64,000 nucleotides of DNA, taken from positions 1 to 64,000 of IMG/VR virus record IMGVR_UViG_3300017963_000033; one strand, written 5' to 3'. Under the pieces are notes generated by a model, which was not told the DNA's origin, made no database searches, and saw only the letters and a list, made by a program, of their open reading frames with translations. Position numbers and translations under genes: made by a program. Of the stretch, positions 2,890 to 55,837 are shown piece by piece (position 1 is the first letter of the stretch; every line of letters starts with the position of its first letter). This DNA is from a virus.

Positions 2890-2898
2890 AAACGGAAA

Positions 2899-2964: not shown

Positions 2965-3013
2965 AAAAATCAAAGGGGCGAAAGGCCCAAAACACAAAAA
3001 AGGAGAGTGTAAA

Positions 3014-7789: not shown

Positions 7790-7810
7790 CTGGATGGATG
7801 TAAAATCAGA

Positions 7811-13898: not shown

Positions 13899-13961
13899 CA
13901 GATTATACCAAGGGTTAGGAAAGTTTAACCTGGAGACTTAATCCAAGGTCAAAATTGGGTC

Positions 13962-13990
13962 TTGACAAGGGGGTGGTTCTATGCTATAAT
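13962..13990 (+). promoter_or_regulatory. Perfect sigma70-type promoter with shared upstream box
   Basis: TTGACA (13962-13967), 17 bases, TATAAT (13985-13990). The preceding bases AAAATTGGGTC are shared with the promoters at 20042 and 27352. A near-palindrome CTAGTATATATTAG lies just downstream, over the likely start of transcription, and could be an operator for the ribbon-helix-helix protein encoded next. Confidence 0.88.
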
Positions 13991-14045: not shown

Positions 14046-14318
14046 ATGCCACAGCTAAAACGGTTTGACGTGAAGGTGTCAGTGAACTTCACGGAGGAGC
14101 AGGTCAGAGACCTGGATGATATGGCTGCACAACTGGATCTGAACCGCAGTGATGTCATCCGCCGCCTCGTAGTAATGGGGATGCCCCTGTTTGTGAACTG
14201 GCTCCATCAGGGACTTGTGCCCAATGGGGGTGCTGAACGCCATACCCATGGTGTAAGCGATGCCCTTGTAGAAGAACTCCCTGGCGGCTACCAACCGGAG
14301 TATGACTATGACCAGTAA
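14046..14318 (+). CDS. Ribbon-helix-helix (Arc/MetJ-type) regulator
   Basis: 90 residues, AGAAAGGAGG upstream. Residues about 7-45 match a ribbon-helix-helix: a beta strand of alternating residues (RFDVKVSVNF), helix A (EEQVRDLDDMAAQL) and helix B (NRSDVIRRLVVMG). Such proteins dimerise through the strand and bind short palindromes. The acidic tail could interact with other proteins. As the first gene after a strong promoter with a palindrome at its start, autoregulation is likely but not shown. Confidence 0.8.
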   Translation: MPQLKRFDVKVSVNFTEEQVRDLDDMAAQLDLNRSDVIRRLVVMGMPLFVNWLHQGLVPNGGAERHTHGVSDALVEELPGGYQPEYDYDQ

Positions 14319-14661
14319 CTGGCTCGACGGCATCGACTTCCCGGCAAAGATGGTCCTGTTCCGGTTTGAGCCCTCGCTGAACAGTCCAAGGGTCTGCACG
14401 GACCAGATTCTGTTGCACAACGAGGCAGATTATCAGGTACGCCTCCAAACATACAAAGACCTGGAGCTGCGCGGGGGCGACCAGTACGTCCACTTTTATC
14501 ACGACCTTGTGCCCGTGCAAGACATCAACGAGGCAATGGCGGCCCTCAGCCGGTTCCTGTCCACAGACCAGGGACCCCACTGGACCGGCGAACCCACCAG
14601 GGTTTCCTGGAAAGCAATCGAGGGGATGCTGGCACAGATTCAAGAAAAGGAGGCAGTATGA
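14302..14661 (+). CDS. Hypothetical protein
   Basis: 119 residues, overlapping the regulator gene by 17 bases; GGAG lies before the second in-frame ATG at 14308, which is an equally good start. Mixed alpha/beta and acidic, no motif recognised. The next gene overlaps its stop by 4 bases, so the two are translationally coupled. Confidence 0.65.
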   Translation: MTMTSNWLDGIDFPAKMVLFRFEPSLNSPRVCTDQILLHNEADYQVRLQTYKDLELRGGDQYVHFYHDLVPVQDINEAMAALSRFLSTDQGPHWTGEPTRVSWKAIEGMLAQIQEKEAV

Positions 14662-14882
14662 ACAGTCACAAGATCCTTTTCCCACCTTTCGTCTATCGCA
14701 TCCAGAGGAAGATCGAACGGTACTTCGAGCCCTTCCCCCTGGGCCTCGCCTGCTGCCTTTTTGCCCTGGCTGTCATCTGCGCCGTGTTCAGCCAATGGTT
14801 CTGGTTTGCCATCACCCTGGCCATGGGCCTCAGCACAGTATGGATGTCCTGGCAGATGGCAAGGGATGCGCGTGGACAATGA
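14658..14882 (+). CDS. Small two-span membrane protein
   Basis: 74 residues; AAAAGGAGG upstream. A basic amphipathic N-terminus (VYRIQRKIERYFEPF) precedes two adjacent hydrophobic spans (about 28-45 and 47-64), giving a membrane hairpin. The family is unknown. Confidence 0.65.
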   Translation: MNSHKILFPPFVYRIQRKIERYFEPFPLGLACCLFALAVICAVFSQWFWFAITLAMGLSTVWMSWQMARDARGQ

Positions 14883-15066
14883 CTGGAACACCTGGGCGCT
14901 ACACTATGAGGACAAGACCGTCGTCCTCACCAGCCTCATGTCCCTCGATGAGTTGTGGGAATGGTATGGGGGGCACGGCCTGCTGGACATCGTTCCCTAC
15001 AATCCCACTGAACCTGACCGGGATGATGCCCATCTGGTAAGGGGAGACCATGACGCCGACCTATGA
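14866..15066 (+). CDS. Hypothetical acidic protein
   Basis: 66 residues from ATG at 14866 (AAGGG just upstream), overlapping the preceding gene by 17 bases and the next by 17. Acidic and Trp-rich (DELWEWYGGHG). A GTG at 14872 is an alternative start. The function is unknown. Confidence 0.55.
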   Translation: MRVDNDWNTWALHYEDKTVVLTSLMSLDELWEWYGGHGLLDIVPYNPTEPDRDDAHLVRGDHDADL

Positions 15067-16609
15067 CCGGGACTATATCTACATCCGGGATAGGCCCATC
15101 CTGCACACCACTGCCAGACGGGATTGGGTGTGCGGCACCTGTGAAAGCCCCCTCAAGGGGATCTGGCAAGACAGTCTTATGATCACCGTTTGTGCCAGGG
15201 ATGCCAGTCATCCAGTGGATGGATTCATCCACCAATCGGCCCTAGAGCGCAGGGTCCATCGAGAACTTATGTTCGGTCATGCACTGGCCGAAAAGGAAAG
15301 GAGAACTATGAGTAGACTGAAAGACCGTGACAGGGAGGATGCACCAGGAGTGCCCCTGCGGCTGAGGCTGGGGCGCGTTGGAAAGATCAGGCAGGGCGTC
15401 ATGGCCAAGAACAAGGATGGAAGAGACTACCCGCTGGCCACACCCTATTTCATCATCGAACCGGCAACTACTATCAAAGAGGACAAATATCGAATCCTGT
15501 CGGAGGTCAGGGCTGCGATTGATGCCCTTGTCCCTGGGCAGGATCTGGAAAAGCCCACTGTGTTGCCCATCATCTTCCTCATCAACGATGATGCGATGAT
15601 TGCCCCCGAGTCCTACAAACTCAGGCGCGGCAAAAAGGGGACTGTCTGGTGTGCCGGCAACGGCGAGACCATCCTGTGGAAGCTGGATGACCAATTCCGA
15701 GTTGAGGTCAGCCAGGGGGTCCACGTCAAAACGGGCGAGATCCTGCGTTGCCCAGGAGGGGACAGGGACCATGAGCGCCACCCCTGGTGTGAGGAGTGCA
15801 ACGGCGAGTTTGAACTGAACTTTGCCATCCAGGGCTATGACCGCAGCGGCGTGTGGCTGCTGCGCACCAAGAGCATGAACTTCCGGGACCAGTTTTGGCC
15901 TCAACTGGCCATCGCCCGAGGGTTTGTCCAGCGAGGCGTGGTGCCCACTCTGGCCGATGTGCCGTTCTTGCTGCGCCGGCAGAAAGAATCTATTACGGCT
16001 CCAGTAGGGGCGAACAAAGGTTTGTCCACTGTCGAGATGCCCATCACGTCCATCGAAATCGAACCCGGATTCCTCAAGTGGGCCAGGGGACGGCAGCAAC
16101 GGATGGTTCAGGCGTTGCAGGCCGGGGAAGTGCTGGCCCTCTCGTCAGGGGAAGAGGGATGGCCAGAGGATGAGGAGGACGGATATATCGACGGGGAAGT
16201 GGACGTGCTGCCCGAGACAATGGAGGAGGCAAATAAACCAGCCGACGAACCCGCCCCGCCCCAGCCCAAACCAGAACCCAAAAAGCCTGCGCCCCGTGCA
16301 AGTAAGCTGGCCCCATCCCCGCGAGAGGCAGCGCCCAGGCGTGGTGCGCAAGCCAAGGAGAAACAGGACCAGCCGGTGGATGAGAAGGCTCCCCCGCCGC
16401 CGACGAACCCGGAAACGCTGAAAACCTCCATCAACTGGGTGACCAGCGGAAAGTACGACACGGTGGGGGATGTCTTGAAGGCGCTGAGGCGCATCTTCTC
16501 GAACAACAAGTACACCTGGCCGGTCAACGAACCAGAAGCATACCCTGAACTTCTGACCTTGTTGGTCCAGGACCACCAGGCCAGCGAGGACGCCAAGAAG
16601 GACAAGTGA
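15050..16609 (+). CDS. Zinc-binding protein of a possible recombination-directionality-like family, two in-frame starts
   Basis: 519 residues from 15050 (AAGGGGAG upstream) or 433 from an in-frame ATG at 15308 with its own AAAGGAGA. Residues 1-86 form a separate Cys-containing module (VCGTCE ... VCARD). The main part (about 95-345) is alpha/beta with a zinc cluster (ILRCPGGDRDHERHPWCEECNG) and resembles phage proteins annotated as hydrolase/metal-binding or serine-integrase directionality-factor-like; that link is tentative, since the integrase here is a tyrosine enzyme. A Pro/Glu/Lys-rich linker (375-450) leads to a C-terminal helical domain. Confidence 0.6.
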   Translation: MTPTYDRDYIYIRDRPILHTTARRDWVCGTCESPLKGIWQDSLMITVCARDASHPVDGFIHQSALERRVHRELMFGHALAEKERRTMSRLKDRDREDAPGVPLRLRLGRVGKIRQGVMAKNKDGRDYPLATPYFIIEPATTIKEDKYRILSEVRAAIDALVPGQDLEKPTVLPIIFLINDDAMIAPESYKLRRGKKGTVWCAGNGETILWKLDDQFRVEVSQGVHVKTGEILRCPGGDRDHERHPWCEECNGEFELNFAIQGYDRSGVWLLRTKSMNFRDQFWPQLAIARGFVQRGVVPTLADVPFLLRRQKESITAPVGANKGLSTVEMPITSIEIEPGFLKWARGRQQRMVQALQAGEVLALSSGEEGWPEDEEDGYIDGEVDVLPETMEEANKPADEPAPPQPKPEPKKPAPRASKLAPSPREAAPRRGAQAKEKQDQPVDEKAPPPPTNPETLKTSINWVTSGKYDTVGDVLKALRRIFSNNKYTWPVNEPEAYPELLTLLVQDHQASEDAKKDK

Positions 16610-16615
16610 ACCAGG

Positions 16616-16649
16616 TTGCCCCGCTGGTTCCTCTACGCCAGCGGGGCAA
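16616..16649 (+). terminator. Perfect 12-bp intergenic hairpin
   Basis: TTGCCCCGCTGG (16616-16627) and its complement (16638-16649) enclose 10 bases, between the stop at 16609 and the ribosome-binding site at 16651. There is no T-run, so partial termination or mRNA protection is possible. Confidence 0.6.
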
Positions 16650-16666
16650 TAGAAAGGAGACAAACA

Positions 16667-17554
16667 GTGAGAGAACATTTTCAGGATTTCAATTTCCAGA
16701 GCGCCACCCTGGAAGTGATTGAGCAAGTGGCCGGCATCATGGGACAATACCGCCGCATGGGGTTTGTGCTAACCGTGCGACAGGTATACTATCAACTTGT
16801 TGCGAGGGGCCTCATTGAGAACTCGCTTTCCTCCTACAAGCGCATCGTCAACATTGTGGGCAATGCCCGACTGGCCGGCATGTTGGATTGGGGCCTCATC
16901 GAGGATAGAGAACGCCCGGTACACTATCCAGGTCATTGGGATGGTGCCAGCGACATTGCACAATCCGCCTATCACAGCTTCCGGGTGAATCGTTGGAAAT
17001 ACCAACCCTGGCATGTGGAAGTGATGTGCGAGAAAAAGGCCCTTGAAGGCGTCCTGCGCCCCGTCTGCGCAAGGCTGGATGTCAGATTTCAGGCTAACCG
17101 GGGCTACAGCAGCCTCACGGCAATGTACGAGACTGGGAAGCGCCTGGAGAGAATGGTTGCTGGTGGAAAAGATGTTGCCATCCTATACTTTGGCGATCAT
17201 GATCCAAGCGGCATGGATATGGACCGTGACATCGCAGAGAGGCTGTCGATGTTTTCCCGGTGCCGTGTTGAGGTCGAGCGGCTTGCCCTCCTCATGGACC
17301 AAATCGAGGAGATGGACATTCCAGAGAACCCTGCCAAGCTGACAGATAGCCGTGCCGATGGATACATCGCCCAATATGGCATGTCCTCTTGGGAGCTGGA
17401 CGCCATGGAGCCGCAGACTATGGCAGACCTCGTGGAGGGTGCCATCTTGAGTTTTCGGGACGAAAGCATTCATGCCGAAGCGATGGACTTTGAAGAAGAA
17501 GAGAAAGAAAAGCTGTCCGCATTCATCCAGGACAATGAGGACAGCACCTACTGA
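16667..17554 (+). CDS. Orphan Spo11/topoisomerase VI-A-like protein (Mini-A-type candidate)
   Basis: 295 residues from a GTG at 16667 behind AGAAAGGAGAC. Near residues 35-43 is TVRQVYYQ, matching the catalytic-tyrosine motif (R-x-V/I-Y-Y) of the winged-helix CAP domain of topoisomerase VI A and Spo11 (Tyr41/Tyr42). A Toprim-like domain follows: Glu122 in a VMCEKKAL strand-loop and Asp177/Asp179 in LYFGDHDPSGMDMD, which would bind Mg2+. No B (GHKL ATPase) subunit is encoded in the window. Families lacking the B subunit (Mini-A) are known on mobile elements. DNA cleavage through a 5'-tyrosyl link is the predicted chemistry; the biological role is unknown. Confidence 0.65.
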   Translation: MREHFQDFNFQSATLEVIEQVAGIMGQYRRMGFVLTVRQVYYQLVARGLIENSLSSYKRIVNIVGNARLAGMLDWGLIEDRERPVHYPGHWDGASDIAQSAYHSFRVNRWKYQPWHVEVMCEKKALEGVLRPVCARLDVRFQANRGYSSLTAMYETGKRLERMVAGGKDVAILYFGDHDPSGMDMDRDIAERLSMFSRCRVEVERLALLMDQIEEMDIPENPAKLTDSRADGYIAQYGMSSWELDAMEPQTMADLVEGAILSFRDESIHAEAMDFEEEEKEKLSAFIQDNEDSTY

Positions 17555-17566
17555 AAGGAGACAAAC

Positions 17567-17983
17567 ATGCCAAATATCAGGACCAGGCGCAGATACGGCA
17601 AGCACGAACAACGCCCGCCCCATCTGGACTACTGGATGCCAACAACCTCCTACCAGAGCTGCCCGACCTGCGGGGATGTACTGACCTGGCTTTGCCCAGA
17701 GTGCAAGGACAACTATACCTACCAGGAGTATCTTGACGTTTGGGAGGAGCACTTTGGGGATGAAACCACGGGAGAAATAACCTCTTGGCACAGTGGAGTT
17801 TCAAGACAAAACATCGTCCACAGGCTGTCAAGGAGGCAATTTCAGCAATCACTTGCCATCGTAGGCCGCAATGGGCGATGGATTGATAAGGAACTAAAGA
17901 AACCTTTCGAGGAACAGGATGGCCAGTGGGTGGACAAGTTGTTTGCCGAATCATTTCCGCACGAATTGCGGCTATTCATGTAG
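17567..17983 (+). CDS. Zinc-ribbon protein downstream of the Spo11-like gene
   Basis: 138 residues, AAAGGAGAC upstream, 12 bases after the previous stop. The N-terminus is basic; residues about 32-46 form a zinc ribbon (CPTCGDVLTWLCPEC) and the C-terminal half is helical. Its position suggests a partner of the Spo11-like protein or simply another small zinc protein of this arm. Confidence 0.65.
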   Translation: MPNIRTRRRYGKHEQRPPHLDYWMPTTSYQSCPTCGDVLTWLCPECKDNYTYQEYLDVWEEHFGDETTGEITSWHSGVSRQNIVHRLSRRQFQQSLAIVGRNGRWIDKELKKPFEEQDGQWVDKLFAESFPHELRLFM

Positions 17984-18001
17984 GAGCAGAGAGGAGAACG
18001 C

Positions 18002-18343
18002 ATGACAGAGGCAGAAGAAATGACGGAGTTACAGTCACTAGATGATGCAGTCCCATTCCTGGGACACTACATTGTCTGGCGTCAACACGATTCTCTTTGG
18101 GAACCAACCCATTGGAATACATACCGTGGCTACCTAGAGCGCGTAAAACAACCATATCGTGGGCTCGGGATGGGGTATCCCATCGTGAGGGAAATCATAA
18201 ACAATGTGCATTCTATGAGCGCCATCGCAGAGGGAAAGATCACTAAAGGCAACAGGATGCAGGTGCGTTTGGCATCCCAAAATGAAATCGCAAGCATGGA
18301 ACTGTCCTATGGGAGGAAGCCGCTGGGGGAGGAAGCCGCATGA
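18002..18343 (+). CDS. Hypothetical protein
   Basis: 113 residues, AGAGAGGAGA upstream. An acidic N-terminus, Trp-rich middle and basic C-terminal half; no known motif. The next gene starts within its stop (ATGA). Confidence 0.6.
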   Translation: MTEAEEMTELQSLDDAVPFLGHYIVWRQHDSLWEPTHWNTYRGYLERVKQPYRGLGMGYPIVREIINNVHSMSAIAEGKITKGNRMQVRLASQNEIASMELSYGRKPLGEEAA

Positions 18344-18735
18344 ACACAGACCGCCAACTGATCATAACCCTCGTCGCCCCTGAGCATTATCACATCCAGT
18401 GGGGAACCAAGGTGCGAACAGGGTTCACCTGGGACGAGATGCTGGGCGAGGTCGCCCATCTCACGTGCCCCCGCGATGGGGGGGGATGGCAAGAAAAGCT
18501 ATTCTGCTCCATGCGCCCCGAAGAGGTCTGCAAATGTGGGCGTAGGAAGAACCGCAGCGACGACCTGTGTGTGGACTGCCGGCTGATCGAACCAGCACCC
18601 GAGCAGAAACTGGGCACCTGCACCATCTGCCACCAACCCATCTACCAGACGATCATGGCAAACCTGTGGGCGCACAAGGATGCCAGCCTGAACCTGGACC
18701 ATGTGGCCGAGCCGGTAGAGGAGGATGGGGAATGA
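18340..18735 (+). CDS. Protein with two zinc knuckles
   Basis: 131 residues. Residues about 64-80 (CKCGRRKNRSDDLCVDC) and 93-96 (CTIC) with downstream His residues suggest one or two zinc sites. The N-terminal 50 residues include a strand-rich part. Overlaps both neighbours by 4 bases, so it is part of a coupled run from 18002 to 19195. Confidence 0.6.
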   Translation: MNTDRQLIITLVAPEHYHIQWGTKVRTGFTWDEMLGEVAHLTCPRDGGGWQEKLFCSMRPEEVCKCGRRKNRSDDLCVDCRLIEPAPEQKLGTCTICHQPIYQTIMANLWAHKDASLNLDHVAEPVEEDGE

Positions 18736-18983
18736 GAGATTTCTTTTGGGAAGTTCTCCTCATCTTCCTCGTCGTCATAGGGACTGGGGTTGTCGTCGGC
18801 CTCATTGTGATTGATGACACACAATACGCCTTCGACATCGAGTGCTGCCAGGTAGAAACAGATACCTGCTACCACGAAACAGGCATCTACGGCTATGGCT
18901 TCCCCGACTGCCCAGACGGCTTTGAGTTCAAGCATGGGGAGTTGTGGACGGTCGATGAGTTCCTGGCTGGAGGGGGTGAATGA
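18732..18983 (+). CDS. Membrane-anchored Cys-rich protein
   Basis: 83 residues; GGATGGGGA upstream. One N-terminal span (about 6-27) is followed by a domain with four Cys residues (ECCQVETDTCYHET ... FPDCPDG) that is probably outside the cytoplasm, where disulfides could form. Possibly a surface or superinfection-exclusion protein, but that is inference. Confidence 0.6.
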   Translation: MRDFFWEVLLIFLVVIGTGVVVGLIVIDDTQYAFDIECCQVETDTCYHETGIYGYGFPDCPDGFEFKHGELWTVDEFLAGGGE

Positions 18984-19195
18984 TGGGCGCAAGAGAGTCC
19001 GAAATCCTGACCTTCATCAAGGGGTACATCGAGGAGCACGGCTTTGCCCCCACCATCCGGGAAATCTGTGATGCCACATGCTGCCGCTCTACCAGCACGG
19101 TGGCCTACAACCTGGATTCCCTGGAGCGGAGGGGGTTGATCACCAGGGAGCAGGGGAAGGCGAGGACGATTCGATTGGTAGGAAAGGAGGAGTGA
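18980..19195 (+). CDS. LexA-type winged-helix DNA-binding protein without protease domain
   Basis: 71 residues corresponding to the N-terminal domain of LexA: helix 1 (ESEILTFIKGYIEEHG), APTIREICDAT as helix 2, STSTVAYNLDSLERRG as recognition helix and a two-strand wing (LITREQGKARTIRL). LexA proper has a C-terminal Ser-Lys peptidase and linker; both are missing, so it cannot self-cleave. It may be an SOS-box competitor or repressor regulated in another way. Confidence 0.8.
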   Translation: MMGARESEILTFIKGYIEEHGFAPTIREICDATCCRSTSTVAYNLDSLERRGLITREQGKARTIRLVGKEE

Positions 19196-19521
19196 TGGCA
19201 TCACCAGAGAAGCACGAAACCCATTGCCCAAATCCGCAATGCGCAGACATCGTAGCCAGCCATGGGGAACCGTATCACCGAGTTTATCCCTCGCATGATA
19301 AGGATTATGTGGCTCGGTGTGAACAATGCGGGGGGAGACTGACCCATGATGGCAAGTGGGTCTACATCTGTGTGACCTGCAACAAGGAGGTTGATGAACT
19401 GTTTGGCCTATTCGTCCCCCACAACTGCAAGGAGTGCCAGCAGAACTTGCTGGATGAGCAGCGGCGTTCGGGGAACATCTGTGGGATGTGCCGACAACCA
19501 CGGGCACTGTGCTGTTGCTGA
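19195..19521 (+). CDS. Multi-Cys zinc-finger protein
   Basis: 108 residues, AAAGGAGGAG upstream, overlapping the LexA-like stop by 1 base. At least four CxxC-type pairs (CEQCGG, CVTCNKE, CKECQQN, CGMCRQP) plus a terminal CCC suggest two treble-clef zinc sites. Probable nucleic-acid or protein adaptor. Confidence 0.65.
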   Translation: MASPEKHETHCPNPQCADIVASHGEPYHRVYPSHDKDYVARCEQCGGRLTHDGKWVYICVTCNKEVDELFGLFVPHNCKECQQNLLDEQRRSGNICGMCRQPRALCCC

Positions 19522-19536
19522 AATTGGCTTGACAAA

Positions 19537-20064
19537 ATGATCTGGACTATCTCGCACAGAGCCGACTCCGCAGCATTGCCAATCGCGGACAGGCATTACA
19601 ATCGCCAAAAGCCGGGAACGCCGCAATTTGTCCCGCCTGGGCGCTGCCTGGTCTTGCTGACAGACGACAGAACGGCGCTTTGGGTCACATCCTGGCCTTT
19701 TGCAAAATATGTTAAACACGCATGGCCAGGCGCTTGGATCAATTCGCTTTTTCGCAATGAGGGACAATATAAAGCCAGCGAACTAATCCGCAGCGCCGTC
19801 GCTGTTACTATAAGTTTTTGGCCCAATGTGCCAGAGTTGGGAATGATCACCTTCATTGATCCCCGACACGTCAAGCCAATCAAAAGGCGAGGCCACGACA
19901 CGTGGGGCTATACTTACCTCAAGGCAGGATTTGAGCCAGCCACCCCAGCGACAACTGCTGGCGGATTACTCGCTTTCCAGATGACGCCCGACCGAATGCC
20001 TAAACCAGCCCTGGCAATAGGTCAACAAATAAAATTGGGTCTTGACAGGTGCTGGAAACTGTGA
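19537..20064 (+). CDS. Phage protein of possible GNAT/Mom-like fold
   Basis: 175 residues. Motifs typical of a recurrent phage family are seen: an ADRHYNRQ start region, PPGRCLVLLTDD, ALWVTSWPF, a SLFRNEG segment and the end GYTYLKAGFEPA, which resembles the last strand-helix of GNAT acyltransferases (KAGF). Phage Mu Mom, a DNA-modifying GNAT, has a comparable size, but the relation is only suggested. The start is unusual: no ribosome-binding site precedes the ATG, and its 3' end overlaps the next promoter. Confidence 0.5.
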   Translation: MIWTISHRADSAALPIADRHYNRQKPGTPQFVPPGRCLVLLTDDRTALWVTSWPFAKYVKHAWPGAWINSLFRNEGQYKASELIRSAVAVTISFWPNVPELGMITFIDPRHVKPIKRRGHDTWGYTYLKAGFEPATPATTAGGLLAFQMTPDRMPKPALAIGQQIKLGLDRCWKL

Positions 20065-20070
20065 TATACT
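20042..20070 (+). promoter_or_regulatory. Sigma70-type promoter for the structured RNA
   Basis: TTGACA (20042-20047), 17 bases, TATACT (20065-20070). About 40 bases including AAATTGGGTC upstream and the spacer are nearly the same as at the 27352 promoter. Transcription should start near 20077, in front of the long structured RNA. Confidence 0.85.
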
Positions 20071-20076
20071 TGATAT

Positions 20077-20250
20077 TGGATTCGTTGGGAGTGACGCCCC
20101 AACTTTTAACATAAGGCGACTGGCATAGAAGGCCCTTGTGGTTTCTCACATGGGCGGTTACGGAATCTACGTGCCGTAGGTGGCAGCGTCAACGTAGAAT
20201 TGTCCAGTCGCCGCCGTACCGTCCAGGTGAGAAGCACCAAGGGCTTTTTT
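20077..20250 (+). ncRNA. Structured non-coding RNA with pseudoknot and terminal T-run
   Basis: About 174 nt from the predicted start to TTTTTT at 20245-20250. Helix A: GGCGACTGG (20115-20123) with its perfect complement at 20204-20212. Helix B: 20132-20157 with 20219-20244 (about 21 of 26 paired) continued by TACGG 20159-20163 with CCGTA 20214-20218. Inside B are TCTACG/CGTAGA (20166-20171 with 20193-20198) and TGCC/GGCA (20172-20175 with 20182-20185). A and B cross (5'A, 5'B, 3'A, 3'B), giving a pseudoknot. A further hairpin GTTGGG/CCCAAC lies near the 5' end. It ends 22 bases before the next gene, so it could be a free small RNA or a terminating leader. No known RNA family is recognised. 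Confidence 0.75.
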
Positions 20251-20272
20251 ATTGACCTGAGAGGAGAAACAG

Positions 20273-20614
20273 ATGCCTAACATCGCGCTCTACCAAACAC
20301 AGGACATGATAAACGACTACCACGCCTCGCTGGCCGAGTTCAAAACCTGCCAGCGGCTGCTCACCCTCCTAGAGGCCGACGTGCGCTCCGAACAGGGACG
20401 CAACCCGGTCAGGGGGAGCATGGCCCGACAGGAGATGGCCAAGACTCGCAGACACATCCGCCACCTGCAAGAAAGGCTGTCTGGCAACGAACAAATCCTG
20501 CGGGCCATCCGCCGAGAGCTGGAGCGCCGGCAGGCTCCACAACTGGACGACCTGCCCGAGATCCCGCAGGTGGTCGAGATCCGATGGGGGTTCCGTGAGG
20601 GAAGAGATGGCTAA
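20273..20614 (+). CDS. Coiled-coil protein
   Basis: 113 residues, GAGAGGAGA upstream. Residues about 8-92 are nearly all helical and charged (MAKTRRHIRHLQERLSGNEQ), indicating a coiled coil. It directly follows the structured RNA and may be regulated by read-through of its terminator. The function is unknown. Confidence 0.65.
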   Translation: MPNIALYQTQDMINDYHASLAEFKTCQRLLTLLEADVRSEQGRNPVRGSMARQEMAKTRRHIRHLQERLSGNEQILRAIRRELERRQAPQLDDLPEIPQVVEIRWGFREGRDG

Positions 20615-21089
20615 TAAACCCCTACTCTACCGTGTCGAACTTCCTGATGTCGAAGTAGAGGTCTTGGATACAGGTTTTGTCATCATCCCTGCCAGCAGGT
20701 TCAGAAGCCCATGGGAACAGCACAGCGTCTATACTGAGATTGCAAGGGAACTGGCCTACTTCCATGCTGAGGAGGGACCCTACACAATCAACATTGGCCT
20801 CATGGAATGCCAGGTCACCGTCCTCAACTACCTGGACCAGGAGGGCCATGGCATTGTTGTCTGGGAATACTACATCCCCCAGAATGACACCGCCCCCGAG
20901 CCCCAATACACCCTCATCGACCAGGAGGGCCGGCAGCCAGCCGCAGTCAACTATGACCCCATCTGCATCGCTCCCCCCAACAGCACCGTGTCTTTCCGCC
21001 GTGCCTCTGAGGACCCGAGGGACACGTGCCCTGTGGAGCATATCATGGTTTTGGGGATTGTGCTGATGCGGCCTGGGGAGGAAGCATGA
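20607..21089 (+). CDS. Hypothetical protein
   Basis: 160 residues from ATG 20607 with GAGGGAAGAG upstream; a GTG at 20595 is less likely. It overlaps the preceding gene by 8 bases. Mixed alpha/beta and acidic, with a stretch resembling a small beta-rich domain; no motif recognised. Confidence 0.65.
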   Translation: MANKPLLYRVELPDVEVEVLDTGFVIIPASRFRSPWEQHSVYTEIARELAYFHAEEGPYTINIGLMECQVTVLNYLDQEGHGIVVWEYYIPQNDTAPEPQYTLIDQEGRQPAAVNYDPICIAPPNSTVSFRRASEDPRDTCPVEHIMVLGIVLMRPGEEA

Positions 21090-21427
21090 TCTTCCTGCCG
21101 ATGGAGGAGATGACGCGAAAGGCTATTCTGTTGGAAATGTATCGCCAGGGTACAATGCTGGTAATAGATACAGAACACTTTCATGCTTCCTCTGAGGAAT
21201 ATGAGCGGCACCATACCAAGCTACAACACCTACTGATAGGCACCTTTGAGCGCAAACAAAAGGCTATCGAGGAACACTGGAAACGGTGGGAAGATACTGG
21301 GCTGTCTGGATTCAGGCTTGAAGATGATGCCCTGATCTATGAGGATACTTGGTGGGTGCGACTGGCTGAGGATCTGAGATTACTTTTGGATGATATGGAA
21401 CTGACACAGAAAGGAGACCAACTATGA
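21086..21427 (+). CDS. Hypothetical helical protein
   Basis: 113 residues from 21086, overlapping the previous stop by 4 bases, GGGGAGGAAG upstream. Strongly helical and charged, with Trp-rich end segments. The final codons contain the AGAAAGGAGACC that serves the mini-ORF at 21424. The function is unknown. Confidence 0.6.
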   Translation: MIFLPMEEMTRKAILLEMYRQGTMLVIDTEHFHASSEEYERHHTKLQHLLIGTFERKQKAIEEHWKRWEDTGLSGFRLEDDALIYEDTWWVRLAEDLRLLLDDMELTQKGDQL

Positions 21428-21447
21428 AACAGGGAGGCTTTCTGTGA
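21424..21447 (+). CDS. Seven-residue leader peptide
   Basis: ATG at 21424, strong AGAAAGGAGACC upstream, reading MKQGGFL and ending in a TGA at 21445-21447 that overlaps the GTG start of the next gene. The second binding site GGGAGG lies inside it, so its translation could open or mask the start of the replication initiator. Confidence 0.45.
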   Translation: MKQGGFL

Positions 21448-22271
21448 GTACACAATCTGAGGAATTCGCTTTCCGCAACCCGGTCAAGCAAGTCGGCTTT
21501 GCCCAGCTTGAACACGTCATCGCTTTAGATCACGAACTGAGTGATGGGGCCTATCGCACCCTGGCCCTCTACATGAAGTATGCCCAGCAAAAGGACACAT
21601 GCTTTCCGGGTATCGAGCGCATAGCAAAGGACAGGGGGAAGAACGTAAGCACCATCTCCCGACACAATGCAGAACTTGAAGCCCTGGGTTACATCACCCG
21701 CCAGCGCAGGACAGGCACAACCACATTGACCTACATCGAGGACGTATATGAGATCCCCCGCCTCAAGGCTGTTGCCACCGATGAATTGTCACATCGCAAT
21801 AATGATAGGTGTAAAGTTGCAATAACGCAATCTGTAACGTTGCAAAAATGCGATGTAGAAGAAGAACAAGGGGAAGGAGAACAAGGGGAAGAATATACTA
21901 TGGTGCCTACGGCACCGGATTCTCCATCTCCTGCTATTGAATCCCCTAGAACTTTTCAGGACTGGGAACAGTTTTTGCTGGAGGCTCCCAACAAACCGGC
22001 TGCACTCCGCATCATGGCCGTGTCCCTTTATGGTGCCGGCAAGGTGCCAGAAGATAACTATGGCATGATTGGACGGGCCTTGAAAAAACATGATCTGCAC
22101 TACATGGCCGGCCTGTTATGGCAGTGGAGTGCTCGGCCTCCCAATGGGGACCCATTCAAGTATGTCATAGGAATTATGAATGCCAAAAACGGAAACAGAC
22201 GACACACCGTCCCAGTAGACCGCAAACGAGAGGAGGAAGAATTTGACTACGCAAACAGCCAGCAGTGGTGA
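21444..22271 (+). CDS. Replication initiator-like helix-turn-helix protein
   Basis: 275 residues from a GTG at 21444 (GGGAGG 7 bases upstream). Residues about 28-85 form a winged helix of the HTH_36/phage replication-protein type (DGAYRTLALYMKYAQ, then ERIAKDRGKNVSTISRHNAELEALG, then a wing RRTGTTTLTY). A Glu-rich linker (about 138-155) and a helical C-terminal domain (about 170-265), reminiscent of DnaD-like primosome domains, follow. It sits directly upstream of a DnaC-like loader, the usual phage initiator-loader pair. Confidence 0.7.
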   Translation: MSTQSEEFAFRNPVKQVGFAQLEHVIALDHELSDGAYRTLALYMKYAQQKDTCFPGIERIAKDRGKNVSTISRHNAELEALGYITRQRRTGTTTLTYIEDVYEIPRLKAVATDELSHRNNDRCKVAITQSVTLQKCDVEEEQGEGEQGEEYTMVPTAPDSPSPAIESPRTFQDWEQFLLEAPNKPAALRIMAVSLYGAGKVPEDNYGMIGRALKKHDLHYMAGLLWQWSARPPNGDPFKYVIGIMNAKNGNRRHTVPVDRKREEEEFDYANSQQW

Positions 22272-23184
22272 CAGTCATAGCACAACAACAAAACGCCGCG
22301 TATTGAATGAGAGGAGTTTTGTAACGCTCCAACGCGCCTGGATGGATGTCCGGTGCCCAGCCTGTCGGGATACAGGGCACGTTGCCCTGTACCCAATCCA
22401 GGACAAAATGGGCCTCCTGGCCTGGTCCCTCGCCCGCATCCCTTCCGACAAGATTCCCTGGTGCAACCACTGTGAGGCGGGACCCCGAGAACGGGCCAAA
22501 TATGAGGATGCGGTTGGAGGCTATAGGCAATCCGATCTCCTGCGCAACTTTGAGCAGGCCCAGGTGCCAGAGCGGTTTCATGGCCTCGGCCTGGACACCA
22601 TCCAGATGATGCACCGAAAGGGCAAAGAGATGGCCCTGGCCGCTGCCGCCATGTTCCTGGATCTCGGTTATGCCATACCAGAGATGGTGTGTGAGTACGA
22701 CAAATCCATACAGGCACATGGTAAAAACCGCAGGGATGGCCTTGCCTTCATCGGCAAGCCAGGCGTGGGCAAGACGGGCATCCTCTCGGTAGTTTTCCAG
22801 GAGATGGTACAGCAAGGGACCCAGGGCCTGTGGGTAGAACTCTATGACTTTTTTGCCTCCATCCAGGGGCAATATGGAAAAGATGGCGGCCTGGCCCACG
22901 AACGCATGGAGGCAGCCCAAAAGGTAGAACTCCTGTTCCTGGATGATTGCGGAGACCCTGACCGGAGGGATACCAACCGGGATTTGCTGCCAGAGACAGA
23001 TGACAAGCGCCGAATTCTATGGCAGGTGCTGGACCATCGGCATGGCAAACATCTGCCAACCCTCATCACCAGCAACCTGGACCGCTCAGGGCTGGAAACA
23101 CAATGGGGCACCCGTCTGGCTGCCCGCCTGTGGGAACTCTGCTGGGTGGTGCCCGTGGGCGGCGTTGATTTGAGGGGCATCTGA
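22243..23184 (+). CDS. DnaC/IstB-like AAA+ helicase loader
   Basis: 313 residues from a TTG at 22243 behind GAGGAGGAAG, overlapping the initiator gene by 29 bases. An N-terminal zinc ribbon (CPAC near 38-41, CNHC near 74-77) precedes an ATPase core with Walker A GKPGVGKT (171-178), Walker B LLFLDD (230-235) and a sensor-1-type LITSN segment. Such loaders place the replicative helicase at the origin. Loss of the helicase gene from the module implies use of the host helicase or one outside the window. Confidence 0.85.
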   Translation: MTTQTASSGDSHSTTTKRRVLNERSFVTLQRAWMDVRCPACRDTGHVALYPIQDKMGLLAWSLARIPSDKIPWCNHCEAGPRERAKYEDAVGGYRQSDLLRNFEQAQVPERFHGLGLDTIQMMHRKGKEMALAAAAMFLDLGYAIPEMVCEYDKSIQAHGKNRRDGLAFIGKPGVGKTGILSVVFQEMVQQGTQGLWVELYDFFASIQGQYGKDGGLAHERMEAAQKVELLFLDDCGDPDRRDTNRDLLPETDDKRRILWQVLDHRHGKHLPTLITSNLDRSGLETQWGTRLAARLWELCWVVPVGGVDLRGI

Positions 23185-23450
23185 TGAACCACGTCCACCG
23201 TGTCTTTCCCTATCGCCATGAACTCGGAGGCCAGGGCGTTCTCTGCACCACCGAGCAAGCCTTTGCTGAGTTTGTCCAGCAGGTCATGCTTACCCTCAAG
23301 GTGAGAGCCCATCACCATCCTGGCACTTTGATGGGCAAAGCCTATAGGGTCAAGATTCCCGGCACTGGAAACTATATCCTGGTCTGCACGTTTGAGACCA
23401 ATGAGCAGCACTACAGCGCGGATAGGGTGTCGCTGTTTTGCATGAATTGA
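23184..23450 (+). CDS. Hypothetical protein
   Basis: 88 residues, ATG overlapping the previous stop (ATGA). His-rich in the centre (RAHHHPG) with strands toward the end (YRVKIPGTGNYILVCTF). No family is recognised. It is coupled to the replication genes. Confidence 0.6.
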   Translation: MNHVHRVFPYRHELGGQGVLCTTEQAFAEFVQQVMLTLKVRAHHHPGTLMGKAYRVKIPGTGNYILVCTFETNEQHYSADRVSLFCMN

Positions 23451-23474
23451 TGAAAAGGATGAAGGTGACGACCA

Positions 23475-23720
23475 ATGGAGGTCTTGCCCAGTTATGACGC
23501 TGGCCAGAAAGGAGACCTCTTGCAAGCGCAGGAATTGCTGGCAGAGATGTCGAGAATGGCAACCCAGGTGAGTGCCCTCCTCGGGCGCAACCTGACCGTC
23601 AAGGGAGTCAACGGGACAAGCCAGGTAGAGATGGATGCTATCTACCAGGCCCATTGCCTGGTGCCCACCGGGGCCATCATGCGAACTAGCCAGTGGGTCA
23701 GGGAGGCGATTCGCCAATGA
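23475..23720 (+). CDS. Hypothetical helical protein
   Basis: 81 residues; GGATGAAGGTGA upstream. Amphipathic helices (LLQAQELLAEMSRMATQVSALL); the end overlaps the RuvC start by 4 bases, so it is coupled to the resolvase. The function is unknown. Confidence 0.55.
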   Translation: MEVLPSYDAGQKGDLLQAQELLAEMSRMATQVSALLGRNLTVKGVNGTSQVEMDAIYQAHCLVPTGAIMRTSQWVREAIRQ

Positions 23721-24214
23721 TCCTCCTTGCCCTGGACCCCAGCCTCTCGGCCATCGGCTGGTGCGTGATGGACACTGACTTGCGGGACCACGAGTGCATC
23801 ACCGCCGCAGGGGTATTCAAGCCCAGCGGAGACTCCCTAGACCTGAAACTGACCTCGGCATCCAAGTGGTTGGACAGTCTTGCAGAGCAGTATCGCCCAG
23901 AAACGATAGCCCTGGAGGTCCCCGTGGTGGCCAAGAATATCCGAACCACCATCAAGCTGGCTCAATTGTCTGGAGCCCTACGCTTGACGGCGTTTCAGTG
24001 GACAGAGAGGACCATTGAGGTCTACCCCGGTGGCCGGCTGGCAGGGCTGGGGTTGCCTATCAAGACAAAAAGGGACGATGCCAAGCGCCTGGTCACAGGT
24101 CATGTCAACAGCATCTATGGCCTGGACCTTGACCCGAAAAGAGAGCACGACATCGCAGACGCGGTTGCCGTGGCCCATGCGGCGTGGTCGATGCTGCGGC
24201 AGGAATGGTTCTGA
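23717..24214 (+). CDS. ruvC: RuvC-like Holliday junction resolvase
   Basis: 165 residues from 23717. RNase-H-fold nuclease: Asp7 in ILLALDPSLSAIGW, Glu67 in TIALEVP, and Asp145/Asp148 in HDIADAVAVAH, matching the four acidic metal ligands of RuvC. The length agrees with bacterial RuvC (about 170). It resolves recombination or replication intermediates before packaging. No RuvA/B is present, as is normal for phage enzymes. Confidence 0.85.
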   Translation: MILLALDPSLSAIGWCVMDTDLRDHECITAAGVFKPSGDSLDLKLTSASKWLDSLAEQYRPETIALEVPVVAKNIRTTIKLAQLSGALRLTAFQWTERTIEVYPGGRLAGLGLPIKTKRDDAKRLVTGHVNSIYGLDLDPKREHDIADAVAVAHAAWSMLRQEWF

Positions 24215-24255
24215 TAATGGTGATATTCGGGAACAACGCAGGAGGTTAAGGTGAC

Positions 24256-24726
24256 GTGAGGGCACTGACACTATGGCAACCGTGGGCGACACTAGTCGCC
24301 ATTGGTGCAAAGAGAATTGAAACACGATCATGGACTACAAGCTACCGAGGGCCGTTGGCGATCCATGCCGCCATGAGCACGAGGGGGCATGAGGCATATT
24401 GGCGCGAACCTTTCTTTGCTGAACTAAGGGTTTACCATTACAATAGGCCACACGAATTACCCCACGGTAGGATCATAGCAGTTTGCGAACTGACCGACAT
24501 CCTTCCGACTGAGGATGTCCGAGGAATCATTGAGAACCGAGAATTGGCATTCGGTGACTATGGGGACGGACGTTATGCCTGGAGATTAGAAAATATCCAT
24601 AGGTTGCCGATTGAAATGCCAGCGCGGGGATACCAAGGTCTGTGGCAGTGGGATTATTCTGGCGAGACAGCCGCAATTCAGAGGATGATTTATACATCCA
24701 TGGACAACCAGAAAGGAGACACATAA
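24256..24726 (+). CDS. ASCH-domain protein
   Basis: 156 residues from a GTG at 24256 with AGGAGGTTAAGG upstream. The N-terminus RALTLWQPWATLVAIGAKRIETRSW is the hallmark of phage ASCH proteins: a small beta barrel that binds RNA or modified nucleotides, related to PUA/YTH folds. Strands near GRIIAVCELTDI and a Trp-rich end (YQGLWQWD) complete the barrel. Some family members are nucleoside amidohydrolases or nucleases; which applies here is unknown. Confidence 0.8.
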   Translation: MRALTLWQPWATLVAIGAKRIETRSWTTSYRGPLAIHAAMSTRGHEAYWREPFFAELRVYHYNRPHELPHGRIIAVCELTDILPTEDVRGIIENRELAFGDYGDGRYAWRLENIHRLPIEMPARGYQGLWQWDYSGETAAIQRMIYTSMDNQKGDT

Positions 24727-25475
24727 TGCCGACAACGCTTTACAATGGAGACATCGAACTGGACTTTGACGCGAGGAAACACACCTACACCCTAAACGGG
24801 ATCAAGGTGCCCAGTGTCACAAAAATCACAGGAGTCCTTGACAAGCCCGCCCTCCAACATTGGGCGGTGAACACGACCCTGGACCATCTCAGGGACACCC
24901 TCCAGGCAGACACCCCATACACGGCTGAACAGATCCAGGGCATCCTCGATGATGCCAAGGGAGCCAGGTGGCGGCAGTCCAGGGAGGCGCTGAACATCGG
25001 CGGGGATGCCCACGATTGGATTGAACGCTACGTCAAGGCCAAACTCCTGAACATCTCAGGGGCCGAGATGCCCACCTATCCCCCTACCCTGGCAGCCGTC
25101 AAATCCTTTCTGGCATGGGAACAGGAGCACGAGGTCCACTGGGTTGCCTCCGAGCGCAAGGTCTATTCCAGGCTGCACAACTATTGCGGCACCCTCGATG
25201 CCCTGGCCGTGCTGAATGGGGTCCTGACCGTAATTGACTTCAAGACATCGTCTGGGATCTATCCAGAGATGTACTTGCAGGTCGTCGCCTACGCCCAGGC
25301 GGTAGGCGAGGAGGACGGCATCACCATCGGGGACGTGGCTATCGTGCGCATCCCCAAGGATGGGGAGATGGTAGAGGTTGCCATGTCGGCTGACAGCGGT
25401 CAGACGATGATGCAACTGTTCACTACGTTCCTGCACTGCCTGGGGATCTACCAGTGGAAGGAGGCAACCAAATGA
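24726..25475 (+). CDS. PD-(D/E)XK exonuclease (Cas4/RecB-like family)
   Basis: 249 residues from 24726, AGAAAGGAGAC upstream and overlapping the ASCH stop by 1 base. The catalytic core: Glu143 (SERKVYS), Asp158 in CGTLDAL, Asp171 and Lys173 in VIDFKTS, and Gln185 in MYLQVVAYAQ. An N-terminal His (GGDAHDWIE, His96) fits the Mg-binding fold of phage recombination exonucleases. It would generate 3' single strands for recombination. No single-strand annealing partner is evident next to it. Confidence 0.8.
   Translation: MPTTLYNGDIELDFDARKHTYTLNGIKVPSVTKITGVLDKPALQHWAVNTTLDHLRDTLQADTPYTAEQIQGILDDAKGARWRQSREALNIGGDAHDWIERYVKAKLLNISGAEMPTYPPTLAAVKSFLAWEQEHEVHWVASERKVYSRLHNYCGTLDALAVLNGVLTVIDFKTSSGIYPEMYLQVVAYAQAVGEEDGITIGDVAIVRIPKDGEMVEVAMSADSGQTMMQLFTTFLHCLGIYQWKEATK
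25431..25469 (+). repeat. 39-bp direct repeat bracketing two small genes, copy 1
   Basis: The 3' end of the exonuclease gene (25431-25469) recurs at 25950-25988 with four differences, all C to T. The second copy is non-coding and supplies the ribosome-binding site of the transglycosylase-like gene. The bracketed segment holds the genes at 25472 and 25644. Confidence 0.8.
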
Positions 25476-25639
25476 CTGTATCAAAGGTACTCATTATTTT
25501 ATGTTCCTTTTTCCTAGCCTATACAGTCAAAATATTACTTTTTCCTAACGATTCTGAAAGATATAAACAGGCTGTTGGCTTGCTATCTATATCTACAATC
25601 TTGGCACTGGTTGCCTATTTTGTCCAAGTGGCGGTATGA
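25472..25639 (+). CDS. Small two-span membrane protein
   Basis: 55 residues from 25472, overlapping the exonuclease stop by 4 bases. Two hydrophobic spans (about 5-24 and 36-54). The AT content is clearly higher than in the flanking genes, suggesting separate origin. Confidence 0.55.
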   Translation: MTVSKVLIILCSFFLAYTVKILLFPNDSERYKQAVGLLSISTILALVAYFVQVAV

Positions 25640-25643
25640 TCAA

Positions 25644-25940
25644 ATGTCCACACTACTCGACATCGGCAGCACATTCGACTGGATCACGCCGCTCATAGCA
25701 ATGATTCGGGATGTGGTAGACGGGCCGTCTCACACCTTCATTATCCCCTATGATTGTGGATGGAGCGGAAGAGAGATTGTTCGATTACTCAAGAGACGGG
25801 GTGTTAGCAGTTGGGGACACATGATTGTCAATCAGCAGTTTATGATCACAGTGCGACAACAGCAAGCACAATGGGCTTATCATATCCTGACACGGGCAGG
25901 GATTTCCGTAGAGTATAGAGTCACTGACAATACGGGATAG
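25644..25940 (+). CDS. Hypothetical protein
   Basis: 98 residues from ATG 25644, 5 bases after the preceding stop, no strong binding site. Mixed alpha/beta (FIIPYDCGWSGREIVRLLKRRG). The family is not recognised. It lies in the repeat-bracketed segment. Confidence 0.55.
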   Translation: MSTLLDIGSTFDWITPLIAMIRDVVDGPSHTFIIPYDCGWSGREIVRLLKRRGVSSWGHMIVNQQFMITVRQQQAQWAYHILTRAGISVEYRVTDNTG

Positions 25941-25949
25941 ATTGATCCC

Positions 25950-25988
25950 CTGCATTGTCTGGGGATCTACTAGTGGAAGGAGGCAACT
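25950..25988 (+). repeat. 39-bp direct repeat, copy 2
   Basis: Second copy of 25431-25469. GGAAGGAGGC inside it precedes the ATG at 25997, so the duplicated piece serves as translation leader. Confidence 0.8.
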
Positions 25989-25996
25989 AGTAGACT

Positions 25997-26620
25997 ATGA
26001 TTTTATTGACCCACCTATCGTCGCCAACTTATAGAATCCTAGCCACCATGCTACCAAATCATTTTGGTAGCCTCATTCAGCCCAGATCGTATACTCACAA
26101 AGCGGCGATTGTCGAGGGCTGCTGGCGGGCAGCGGACAATGACGCATATAATAAATTCAACGCCGAGAGATTCCAAACTATGTTGAAGGTTCACCGGCCC
26201 TATTTGTCCCGATGCCTCTTTGTAGTTGCCCCAGATTCAGTAGGGGATCACGAGGCAACGCTGGCATTCTGGCACAATTGGAAGCGGACAATAAGCTACG
26301 CAGGATACCCTGCCGCCTTCGTGGCACAGGATGGATGCACAATCAAAGACGTTCCCTGGTCCGAGGCAGATGCTCTTTTTATCGGAGGACATGATCAATT
26401 CAAAGACAGTGATGCCATGCCCATTATCCGAGAGGCCAAGCGGCGGGGGCTGTGGGTGCATGTTGGCCGGGTAAACGATAGCCCGCGCCGTCTGCGTTAC
26501 TGCCTAGAATTGTCCGTCGATTCAATCGACGGGACGGCATACGCGCAGAAACCAGACAAGATGCTGCGCTGGTATTTGAATCAGCGGGCGACATACGCAA
26601 GCCAAGGGAGGTTATTGTGA
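25997..26620 (+). CDS. tRNA-guanine-transglycosylase-like protein (DpdA-type candidate)
   Basis: 207 residues, GGAAGGAGG upstream. TIM-barrel-like order of strands with motifs of TGT/DpdA relatives: FVVAPD (Asp80), AFVAQDG (111-113), DALFIGG (125-131), LWVHVGRVN and ELSVDSIDGT (Asp175, Asp178). Such enzymes exchange guanine for a 7-deazaguanine base; phage members act on DNA. Shorter than bacterial TGT (about 375) and without its zinc site. Adjacent to a VUT transporter, which supports 7-deazaguanine chemistry. Confidence 0.6.
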   Translation: MILLTHLSSPTYRILATMLPNHFGSLIQPRSYTHKAAIVEGCWRAADNDAYNKFNAERFQTMLKVHRPYLSRCLFVVAPDSVGDHEATLAFWHNWKRTISYAGYPAAFVAQDGCTIKDVPWSEADALFIGGHDQFKDSDAMPIIREAKRRGLWVHVGRVNDSPRRLRYCLELSVDSIDGTAYAQKPDKMLRWYLNQRATYASQGRLL

Positions 26621-27126
26621 TCTATATAATTTTGTACCTCGTCGCCATCGTCTTTGCCAACCTGGCCGTTGCTTGGTTCGGGCCTGGCGTGTCGGTGGTC
26701 AATGCATTCCTATTCATCGGCCTGGACCTGACTGCCCGCGACAAACTGCATGATGCCTGGCACAAGCGCGGCCTCGTGTGGAAGATGACTGCACTGATCG
26801 CCACCGGCTCGCTGCTGTCCTGGGCGCTGAACCGCAACGCCGGGCCGGTTGCGTTGGCCTCGTTTGTCGCGTTCGCTGGGGCTGGCCTGGTGGATGCCAT
26901 TGTCTACCACTTGCTGGGCGACCGGGCAAAGCTGCTCAAGATCAATGGCAGCAACGTGGCAAGCGCGGCGGTGGATAGCGTGATCTTCCCCGCGCTGGCG
27001 TTCGGATTCCCGCTGATGGTTGGCGTGATGCTGGGCCAGTTTGTCGCCAAGGTCGGCGGTGGCTTCCTCTGGTCGCTAGTGCTGAACTGGCGACCACAGC
27101 GCAAAGTCAAGGGGGAGGCGCAATAA
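26617..27126 (+). CDS. VUT-family (YhhQ-like) queuosine precursor transporter
   Basis: 169 residues from a GTG at 26617 overlapping the transglycosylase-like stop, with GGGAGG upstream. About five or six hydrophobic spans; the segments VVNAFLFIGLDLTARDKLHDAW and AGLVDAIVYHLLGD match the conserved core of VUT proteins, which import preQ0/preQ1. A phage copy would raise the supply of deazaguanine precursor for the neighbouring enzyme. Confidence 0.75.
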   Translation: MIYIILYLVAIVFANLAVAWFGPGVSVVNAFLFIGLDLTARDKLHDAWHKRGLVWKMTALIATGSLLSWALNRNAGPVALASFVAFAGAGLVDAIVYHLLGDRAKLLKINGSNVASAAVDSVIFPALAFGFPLMVGVMLGQFVAKVGGGFLWSLVLNWRPQRKVKGEAQ

Positions 27127-27203
27127 ACTGCCCAGCCTACTATCTCCACCAGCCACTTCTGAGGAAAGAAAAAAGGTCAAGTACAAGTTTGGGCGGCTGT
27201 GTT

Positions 27204-27276
27204 CATCACTTACAGGACTTGAACCTGTAACCAAACGTTCCTGATACGTTCGCGCTGCCAATTGCGCTAAAGTGTG
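27204..27276 (-). tRNA. tRNA-like gene, anticodon CAG, imperfect acceptor
   Basis: On the minus strand: D arm GCGC-AATTGGCA-GCGC, anticodon stem AACGT/ACGTT with loop ATCAGGA (U33, anticodon CAG), 5-base variable loop, T arm ACAGG-TTCAAGT-CCTGT, all perfect. The acceptor stem pairs only 5 of 7 bases (the outer two mismatch) and CCA is not encoded. CAG would read Leu CUG codons, but bacterial tRNA-Leu has a long variable arm, absent here. It is opposite in orientation to the surrounding genes. Its function is doubtful. Confidence 0.55.
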
Positions 27277-27351
27277 TAAGCCACCACCAGGTTAGGGTAC
27301 TCGACCCGCAAGAAGTATACCCCACTTTCCCAAAGATGTCAAATTGGGGTC

Positions 27352-27380
27352 TTGACAGGCGCTGGAATCTGTGATATACT
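27352..27380 (+). promoter_or_regulatory. Sigma70-type promoter, near-copy of the 20042 promoter
   Basis: TTGACA (27352-27357), 17 bases, TATACT (27375-27380). AAATTGGGGTC upstream and the spacer GGCGCTGGAATCTGTGA closely match the 20042 promoter. It drives the ribbon-helix-helix gene at 27413. Confidence 0.85.
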
Positions 27381-27412
27381 GTCTGTGTAATGACATTGTG
27401 CGGAGGGAATAC

Positions 27413-27619
27413 ATGGGAGAGCAAGACACAATAGGAAAACAGGATGTGACGCTGACAATCAGGCTCGGGTTGCCGTTGCGGAAACAGGCATCAGCCAAGG
27501 CCATAAGGGATGGCTTTAGCCTGTCAGGGGTTGTGCGAACACTCCTACGCAGATACGTGGCGGGGGACATCCAGATCGAGACAACGGTCACGATGTCTGA
27601 GGAGAAGGATGATGGATAG
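27413..27619 (+). CDS. Ribbon-helix-helix (CopG-like) protein
   Basis: 68 residues from ATG 27413, CGGAGGG upstream. A strand (QDVTLTIRLGL) followed by two helices (LRKQASAKAIRDG; SLSGVVRTLLRRYVAG) fits the fold. It is the first gene after a promoter of the shared type, so it may be autoregulatory and may also control the RNA at 20077, whose promoter is nearly identical. Confidence 0.7.
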   Translation: MGEQDTIGKQDVTLTIRLGLPLRKQASAKAIRDGFSLSGVVRTLLRRYVAGDIQIETTVTMSEEKDDG

Positions 27620-28319: not shown

Positions 28320-28362
28320 GAGGAGACACTACTGCGGAATTCAGGGATGGGAGACGAGGACA

Positions 28363-28542
28363 ATGGATGAAGATGGAACCGGGGAACTGACGTTTGACGA
28401 GGTTGACATGCAGGACATGATTGACGATTGGTCGCGGATCTATGCCGAGGGTGTACGCGTTGACGGCTGGTATTATGACTGCCGGTCGGCCACCGTGATT
28501 ATCCGGCTGATTATCGAAGAGGGAGAGGACACCGACGCATGA
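28363..28542 (+). CDS. Small acidic protein
   Basis: 59 residues from ATG 28363 with GAGACGAGGA upstream. Strongly acidic with a strand-rich end (ATVIIRLIIEEGE). The next gene overlaps its stop by 4 bases. The function is unknown. Confidence 0.55.
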   Translation: MDEDGTGELTFDEVDMQDMIDDWSRIYAEGVRVDGWYYDCRSATVIIRLIIEEGEDTDA

Positions 28543-55818: not shown

Positions 55819-55837
55819 TTCTGTCTCCTTTCTCAAA

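Follow-up and report, generated by a model that had tools for sequence, protein, structure and literature searches.

A terminator-ended leader RNA as a candidate transcription attenuator in front of the replication genes of an uncultured tailed phage

Between two gene blocks of an uncultured tailed phage, a consensus-type promoter, P2, is followed by a leader for which the sequence supports a short, structured RNA of about 170 nt that is essentially non-coding and ends in a terminator. We lean, with moderate confidence, towards a function of the P2 leader as a transcription attenuator or timing brake that acts on the replication genes and would also yield the RNA of about 170 nt. A preliminary description of this region had listed an attenuator controlling the gene at 20273 among several options; in the present analysis it emerges as the best reading, with a free small RNA as a considerably less probable alternative. 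The element itself is real and well formed, and other phages are known to have elements of this kind.

The window, i.e. the whole stretch of DNA analyzed, comprises 64,000 bases from the start of a 79,319-base IMG/VR virus record. The window carries tail, terminase and replication genes of a tailed phage. Among named phages, the nearest terminase is that of Methanosarcina virus MetMV (54%), and among IMG/VR records that of G001 (66%). The latter record has structural genes in common with ours (up to 74%) and is without the region studied here. Related terminases are furthermore present in MAGs of Thermodesulfobacteriota, Candidatus Psychracetigena, Methanoperedens and Dehalococcoidia. The late region on the minus strand (47044-57436) contains genes for a glycosyltransferase, a DegT-type aminotransferase and a nucleotide-sugar epimerase, which suggests phage-carried glycosylation genes. 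A LexA-type protein is encoded at 18980.

On the plus strand, genes are densely packed from 14046 to past 32000. Gaps of more than 60 bp in the gene list are found at 20065-20272, 27127-27413 and 28320-28538, and the last of these, with an ATG reading frame inside, probably codes for protein. The first two, 208 and 287 bp long, contain one promoter each, P2 and P3, respectively. The gene blocks and the promoters are arranged as follows:

13952-13990, plus strand: sister promoter P1 (promoter proper 13962-13990), heading the gene block 14046-20064
14046-20064, plus strand: gene block 1
20032-20047, plus strand: AAATTGGGTCTTGACA, the -35 hexamer of P2 with 10 bases upstream
20042-20070, plus strand: promoter P2, TTGACA-N17-TATACT, with ACAG-N10-CTGT in the spacer
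20273-27126, plus strand: replication-type gene block, tightly packed, beginning behind terminator B
20273-20614, plus strand: first gene downstream of the terminator (113 aa), with the ribosome site AGAGGAG at 20260-20266
27341-27380, plus strand: sister promoter P3 (near-copy of P2 at 27352-27380), at the head of the third block and followed by a short leader

The replication-type block has replication and recombination functions and encodes an HTH_36 protein, an IstB/DnaC-type ATPase, a RuvC resolvase, an exonuclease and a Vut_1 transporter. For its first product, the 113-aa protein, two long helices (H5-40 and H45-85) are predicted with a mean pLDDT of 79 without alignment, in agreement with the coiled-coil gene proposed earlier at this position; a family match is absent in Pfam and PHROGs. 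The Vut_1-type transporter gene and its neighbour occur twice in the record, at 25997-27126 and at L083 5770-6932, and this doubled pair possibly serves a deazaguanine or queuosine-type salvage.

The consensus-type promoter that had been noticed before is indeed present at 20042-20070, and transcription from it would be expected to start near 20077. AAATTGGGTCTTGACA recurs without a single mismatch at 13952-13967, so that P1 and P2 both carry the exact 16-mer, and with one inserted G at 27341-27357, compared to a mean of 0.43 matches in shuffled sequences even when up to 3 mismatches are allowed. P3 and P2 are identical at 36 of 41 bases, and the ACAG-N10-CTGT spacer is found in these two promoters and nowhere else in the record. 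Judged by these repeats, the three gene blocks appear to start at three related promoters, and AAATTGGGTCTTGACA in all three together with the spacer motif in two of them looks like a common operator for early gene blocks. A structured leader with a terminator follows P2 only, whereas the leaders of P1 and P3 are without such an element. The P2 promoter pattern was not found elsewhere in the pattern search for relatives. On the minus strand, a tRNA-Leu (CAG) in the region 27204-27342 has a strong promoter of its own (27342-27314), which lies back to back with P3.

Within the P2 leader, the following elements were located:

20084-20103, plus strand: 5' hairpin GUUGGGAGUGACGCCCCAAC, -7.9 kcal/mol
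20115-20123, plus strand: 5' strand of helix A, GGCGACTGG, perfect 9-bp pairing with 20204-20212
20132-20163, plus strand: 5' strand of helix B, pairing with 20214-20244
20136-20255, plus strand: TTG frame of 39 codons, unsupported
20138-20179, plus strand: GTG frame MVSHMGGYGIYVP of 13 codons, behind the Shine-Dalgarno-like AGAAGG at 20127-20132 and across the 5' strand of B
20165-20181, plus strand: hairpin nested within the apex of B, with a probability of about 0.82 in nested-ensemble folding
20204-20212, plus strand: 3' strand of helix A, CCAGTCGCC, perfect 9-bp pairing with 20115-20123
20214-20244, plus strand: 3' strand of helix B, pairing with 20132-20163
20245-20250, plus strand: T6 tract directly after the stem of B, the end of an intrinsic terminator

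Both helices, the hairpin nested inside B and the terminator-like T-run, which ends B exactly, had been part of the preliminary description, and all of them are found. Helix B consists of 28 pairs, arranged as 7 bp, a 2x2 loop, 9 bp, a 1x1 loop, 8 bp, a 1-nt bulge and 4 bp. The view of the leader as about 174 nt without a coding frame is nearly right, but two small frames exist, neither of them supported. The 13-codon frame is a possible leader frame and may have arisen by chance.

The stability of the leader was compared to that of shuffled sequences. The fold of 20077-20260 has a z of -4.8, and none of 200 shuffles was equally stable. For the duplex of B, -52.1 kcal/mol were calculated, as compared to a mean of -19.5 (sd 3.6) and a minimum of -40.1 among 2000 shuffles. 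B together with T6 is far above chance, and when 1.3 Mb from phages and related loci were scanned for terminator-anchored stems, one other T-anchored stem of similar size with a large loop was found, located inside a terminase gene. Helix A is marginally above chance and thus suggestive, not established: a perfect helix of at least 9 bp crossing B occurs in 0.7% of the shuffles, and the best duplex energy between the two stretches that hold A is equalled in 32%. A ranking of stability over the whole window is uninformative, since G+C-rich coding DNA dominates it and none of the 120-nt segments used contained B completely. Other unusually stable 120-nt folds (z below -5 on one or both strands) are located at 427-546, 1447-1566, 2887-3006 and 43447-43566.

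As in intrinsic terminators, the base of B is a G+C-rich stem (GCCCUUG/CAAGGGC) followed by a T-run. It is not a local hairpin with a short loop, as the strands of this base (20132-20138 and 20238-20244) are 99 nt apart, and B is missed by a standard terminator scan (loop 3-8). Each strand of B can also fold on itself. The 5' strand does so at 20132-20155 with -13.4 kcal/mol (one flanking base on each side), and the 3' strand forms a smaller local hairpin at 20221-20244 (-9.6 kcal/mol), which sits before T6 as a weaker alternative terminator stem.

In classical bacterial transcription attenuators, an earlier leader fold competes with the terminator in the nascent RNA. Folding of the growing P2 transcript was considered in terms of nested equilibrium estimates, which do not include pseudoknots. 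For transcript ends at 20212-20228, the probabilities of helix A and of the hairpin of B's own 5' strand are both about 1, whereas for ends from 20236 onwards B is formed with a probability of about 1 and A with a probability of about 0. By calculation, A and the terminator are thus mutually exclusive and exchange between the ends 20228 and 20236. The corresponding energies are -61.1 kcal/mol with A enforced and -74.4 kcal/mol for B. The predicted replacement of an earlier fold by a terminator hairpin resembles the classical attenuators, although here A and B share no bases and would exclude each other by crossing.

Helix A lies 5' of B on both strands, so that the two helices cross as drawn. 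The preliminary description had taken this as a pseudoknot in which A and B coexist, a view that the calculations do not bear out. The 3' strands of A and B are 1 nt apart (20213), which places the outer end of A at the inner end of B, and the 8-nt linker 20124-20131 must then join the inner end of A to the outer end of B, about 28 bp away. By our own geometric estimate, this linker looks too short for both full helices unless B is partly open. Since B moreover replaces the marginal helix A in the nested ensemble, the simplest reading is that A and B are successive, competing folds, with B predicted to displace A just before the T-tract. As the 3' strand of B forms its own hairpin before T6, termination would perhaps be weak, not absent, in the A state.

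The attenuator reading builds on the promoter and its two sister copies, on B with T6, on the calculated order of folds and on the gene layout, in which P2 sits between the blocks and B downstream of P2. It builds furthermore on a search for other promoters: on the plus strand between 20250 and 27350, no promoter-like site scored more than 9/12, a score also frequent in shuffled sequence. Without another good promoter in this interval, the replication block would need read-through of B. We infer that termination occurs at B and that it is conditional, and likewise infer by what it would be relieved. P2 would be the leader promoter of the second early transcription unit, its RNA starting at about 20077. 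In the nascent RNA, A would close first while the 5' strand of B is held in its own hairpin. As the 3' strand of B emerges, the long hairpin B would form at the expense of A and, together with T6, end transcription and release the RNA of about 170 nt. Transcripts arriving from P1 would be stopped by B as well. The genes at 20273-27126 would be reached only when RNA polymerase passes B, either because refolding is too slow or because B is hindered by a ribosome translating the leader frame, by a protein of the phage or the host, or by an antitermination complex. A ribosome on the 13-codon frame would prevent B from forming, while A and the small hairpin would remain, which would provide a translation-based input. 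Against an attenuator stand the loop of B, which is larger than in a usual terminator, and the short terminator hairpin of its 3' strand, which forms even with A closed, so that A need not fully prevent termination. In addition, the 9/12 sites at 21019, 25611 and 25887 may function as promoters, as the consensus used may not be that of the host.

Two phage systems come closest to the P2 leader in their way of working. In phage P4, termination in the untranslated immunity leader keeps the replication genes off, and the CI RNA together with the complementary sites seqA and seqC decides the outcome (PMC4825925). The P2 leader likewise precedes a replication gene block, as the HTH_36, IstB/DnaC-type ATPase, RuvC and exonuclease genes indicate. 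In P4, however, the processed CI RNA pairs with two separate sites, whereas here the arms of B are the sole complementary pair. A P4-type immunity leader was rejected, as a third copy or a further complement of at least 12 nt is absent in the record. IsrK of Gifsy-1 has its own promoter, an intrinsic terminator with partial read-through into a phage operon, and alternative long-range folds (PMC4825925). It shares with the P2 leader the promoter and the short terminator-ended RNA ahead of a phage operon, with read-through being a prediction in our case. The folds of IsrK control translation of orf45 and use sequence beyond the terminator, whereas the switch proposed here precedes the terminator. 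By analogy, the best reading is that the leader works like the P4 leader or IsrK; homology is not implied, and sequence homology to either was not found.

Among the families of Rfam 15, only a tRNA at 27207-27274 reaches the gathering cut-off in the window. The best local matches of the leader (10.7 and 14.5 bits) are far below the cut-offs, in line with the earlier impression that it matches no recognized family. The leader is a terminator-type element outside any named RNA family. A tRNA-Ala (TGC) detected by ARAGORN at 7717-7790 is also unlisted in the Rfam scan at the gathering score.

Relatives of the leader RNA were not found in the collections searched, i.e. IMG/VR (by exact peptide and DNA patterns), 84,980 GTDB genomes (by patterns of the 113-aa gene), and named phages, plasmids and 799 host-side genomes (by BLAST). 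At the DNA level, phages and plasmids gave no useful match. The 113-aa gene has no relatives in viral contigs, genome contigs or phages, apart from one weak match (E 6e-4, 32%, with an internal stop) in 1 of 30 related records. The neighbouring 164-aa gene and the ATPase led to no relatives either, including in these 30 records and in 400 Chloroflexota genomes, and none of 80 loci with the upstream gene at 19537 contains another tested gene or the RNA. The top of B (20167-20197) matches 28 of 31 bases upstream of uvrB in one of the 400 Chloroflexota genomes, a MAG (L198:1050-1080, E 5e-5). This match is a single intergenic copy, is not a matching RNA and was not seen in the rest of the class. 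CCAGTCGCC and GAGAAGCA also occur downstream of it in the same order, and its right flank aligns better than in any of 2000 shuffles, which is odd. The similarity may be due to chance or to a common short element, and the attenuator reading is not built on it.

A free small RNA, i.e. a stable product of about 170 nt acting in trans on phage or host RNAs with incidental read-through, is possible, though clearly less probable than an attenuator. The consensus promoter, the 5' hairpin, the strong terminator and the lack of a conserved frame would suit it, and the short IsrK of Gifsy-1 is a trans-acting phage precedent (PMC4825925). A complement of at least 12 nt is, however, absent elsewhere on both strands of the 79-kb record, and its location precisely at the boundary of two gene blocks, together with the lack of a further promoter downstream, speaks for a role in cis. 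We consider it somewhat less probable still that B is an ordinary strong terminator closing block 1 beside the ordinary promoter of block 2, with constitutive read-through and no special role for the RNA between them. B with T6 has the basic pattern of such a terminator, and helix A barely exceeds chance. Lying downstream of P2, however, B would block the adjoining promoter, and the leaders of P1 and P3 contain nothing comparable.

It appears quite unlikely that helix A is broken by the growing B and that the resulting pseudoknot strain times a switch from early to replication genes, which would constitute a new leader class, or that the leader yields a stable trans-acting pseudoknotted RNA. 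Very unlikely is also that A and B persist together as a genuine pseudoknot, the form given in the preliminary description, for instance in a ribozyme, a guide-like RNA or a decoy. Both crossing helices are present, and a crude sum (B with the A strands free, -70.2; A duplex, -17.1; a typical pseudoknot penalty) would be slightly better than -74.4 kcal/mol. Against it stand the 8-nt linker, the frequency of helices like A in shuffles by length and by energy, the absence of an Rfam match, and 17 viral contigs recovered with the A-helix pattern, none of which (0/17) has a similar terminator-ended crossing stem. The likeness to HDV-like ribozymes is confined to the order of the two crossing helices. 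As noted before, these ribozymes do not fit: the 1 nt between the 3' strands leaves no room for P4, B is far too long, and an HDV match is absent even at E up to 10. Least probable is a DNA-level site (operator, replication or partition) made of two imperfect 24-bp palindromes at 20132-20155 and 20221-20244, which lie 89 bp apart and are of opposite sense. Folds as stable as those of the arms are reached in only 0.3% and 2.3% of shuffles, respectively, and replication genes adjoin. Neither arm, however, recurs in the 79-kb record, and an RNA terminator is the better match for a T6 placed right at the end of the stem and for a promoter upstream.

Overall, if the P2 leader is an attenuator, a tailed-phage lineage that is uncultured and distant from the enterobacterial models would possess an RNA-based brake that times its replication genes, and this brake would be driven by one of three promoters with a common control sequence. 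The leader would furthermore be a compact case in which two helices without shared bases exclude each other by topology.
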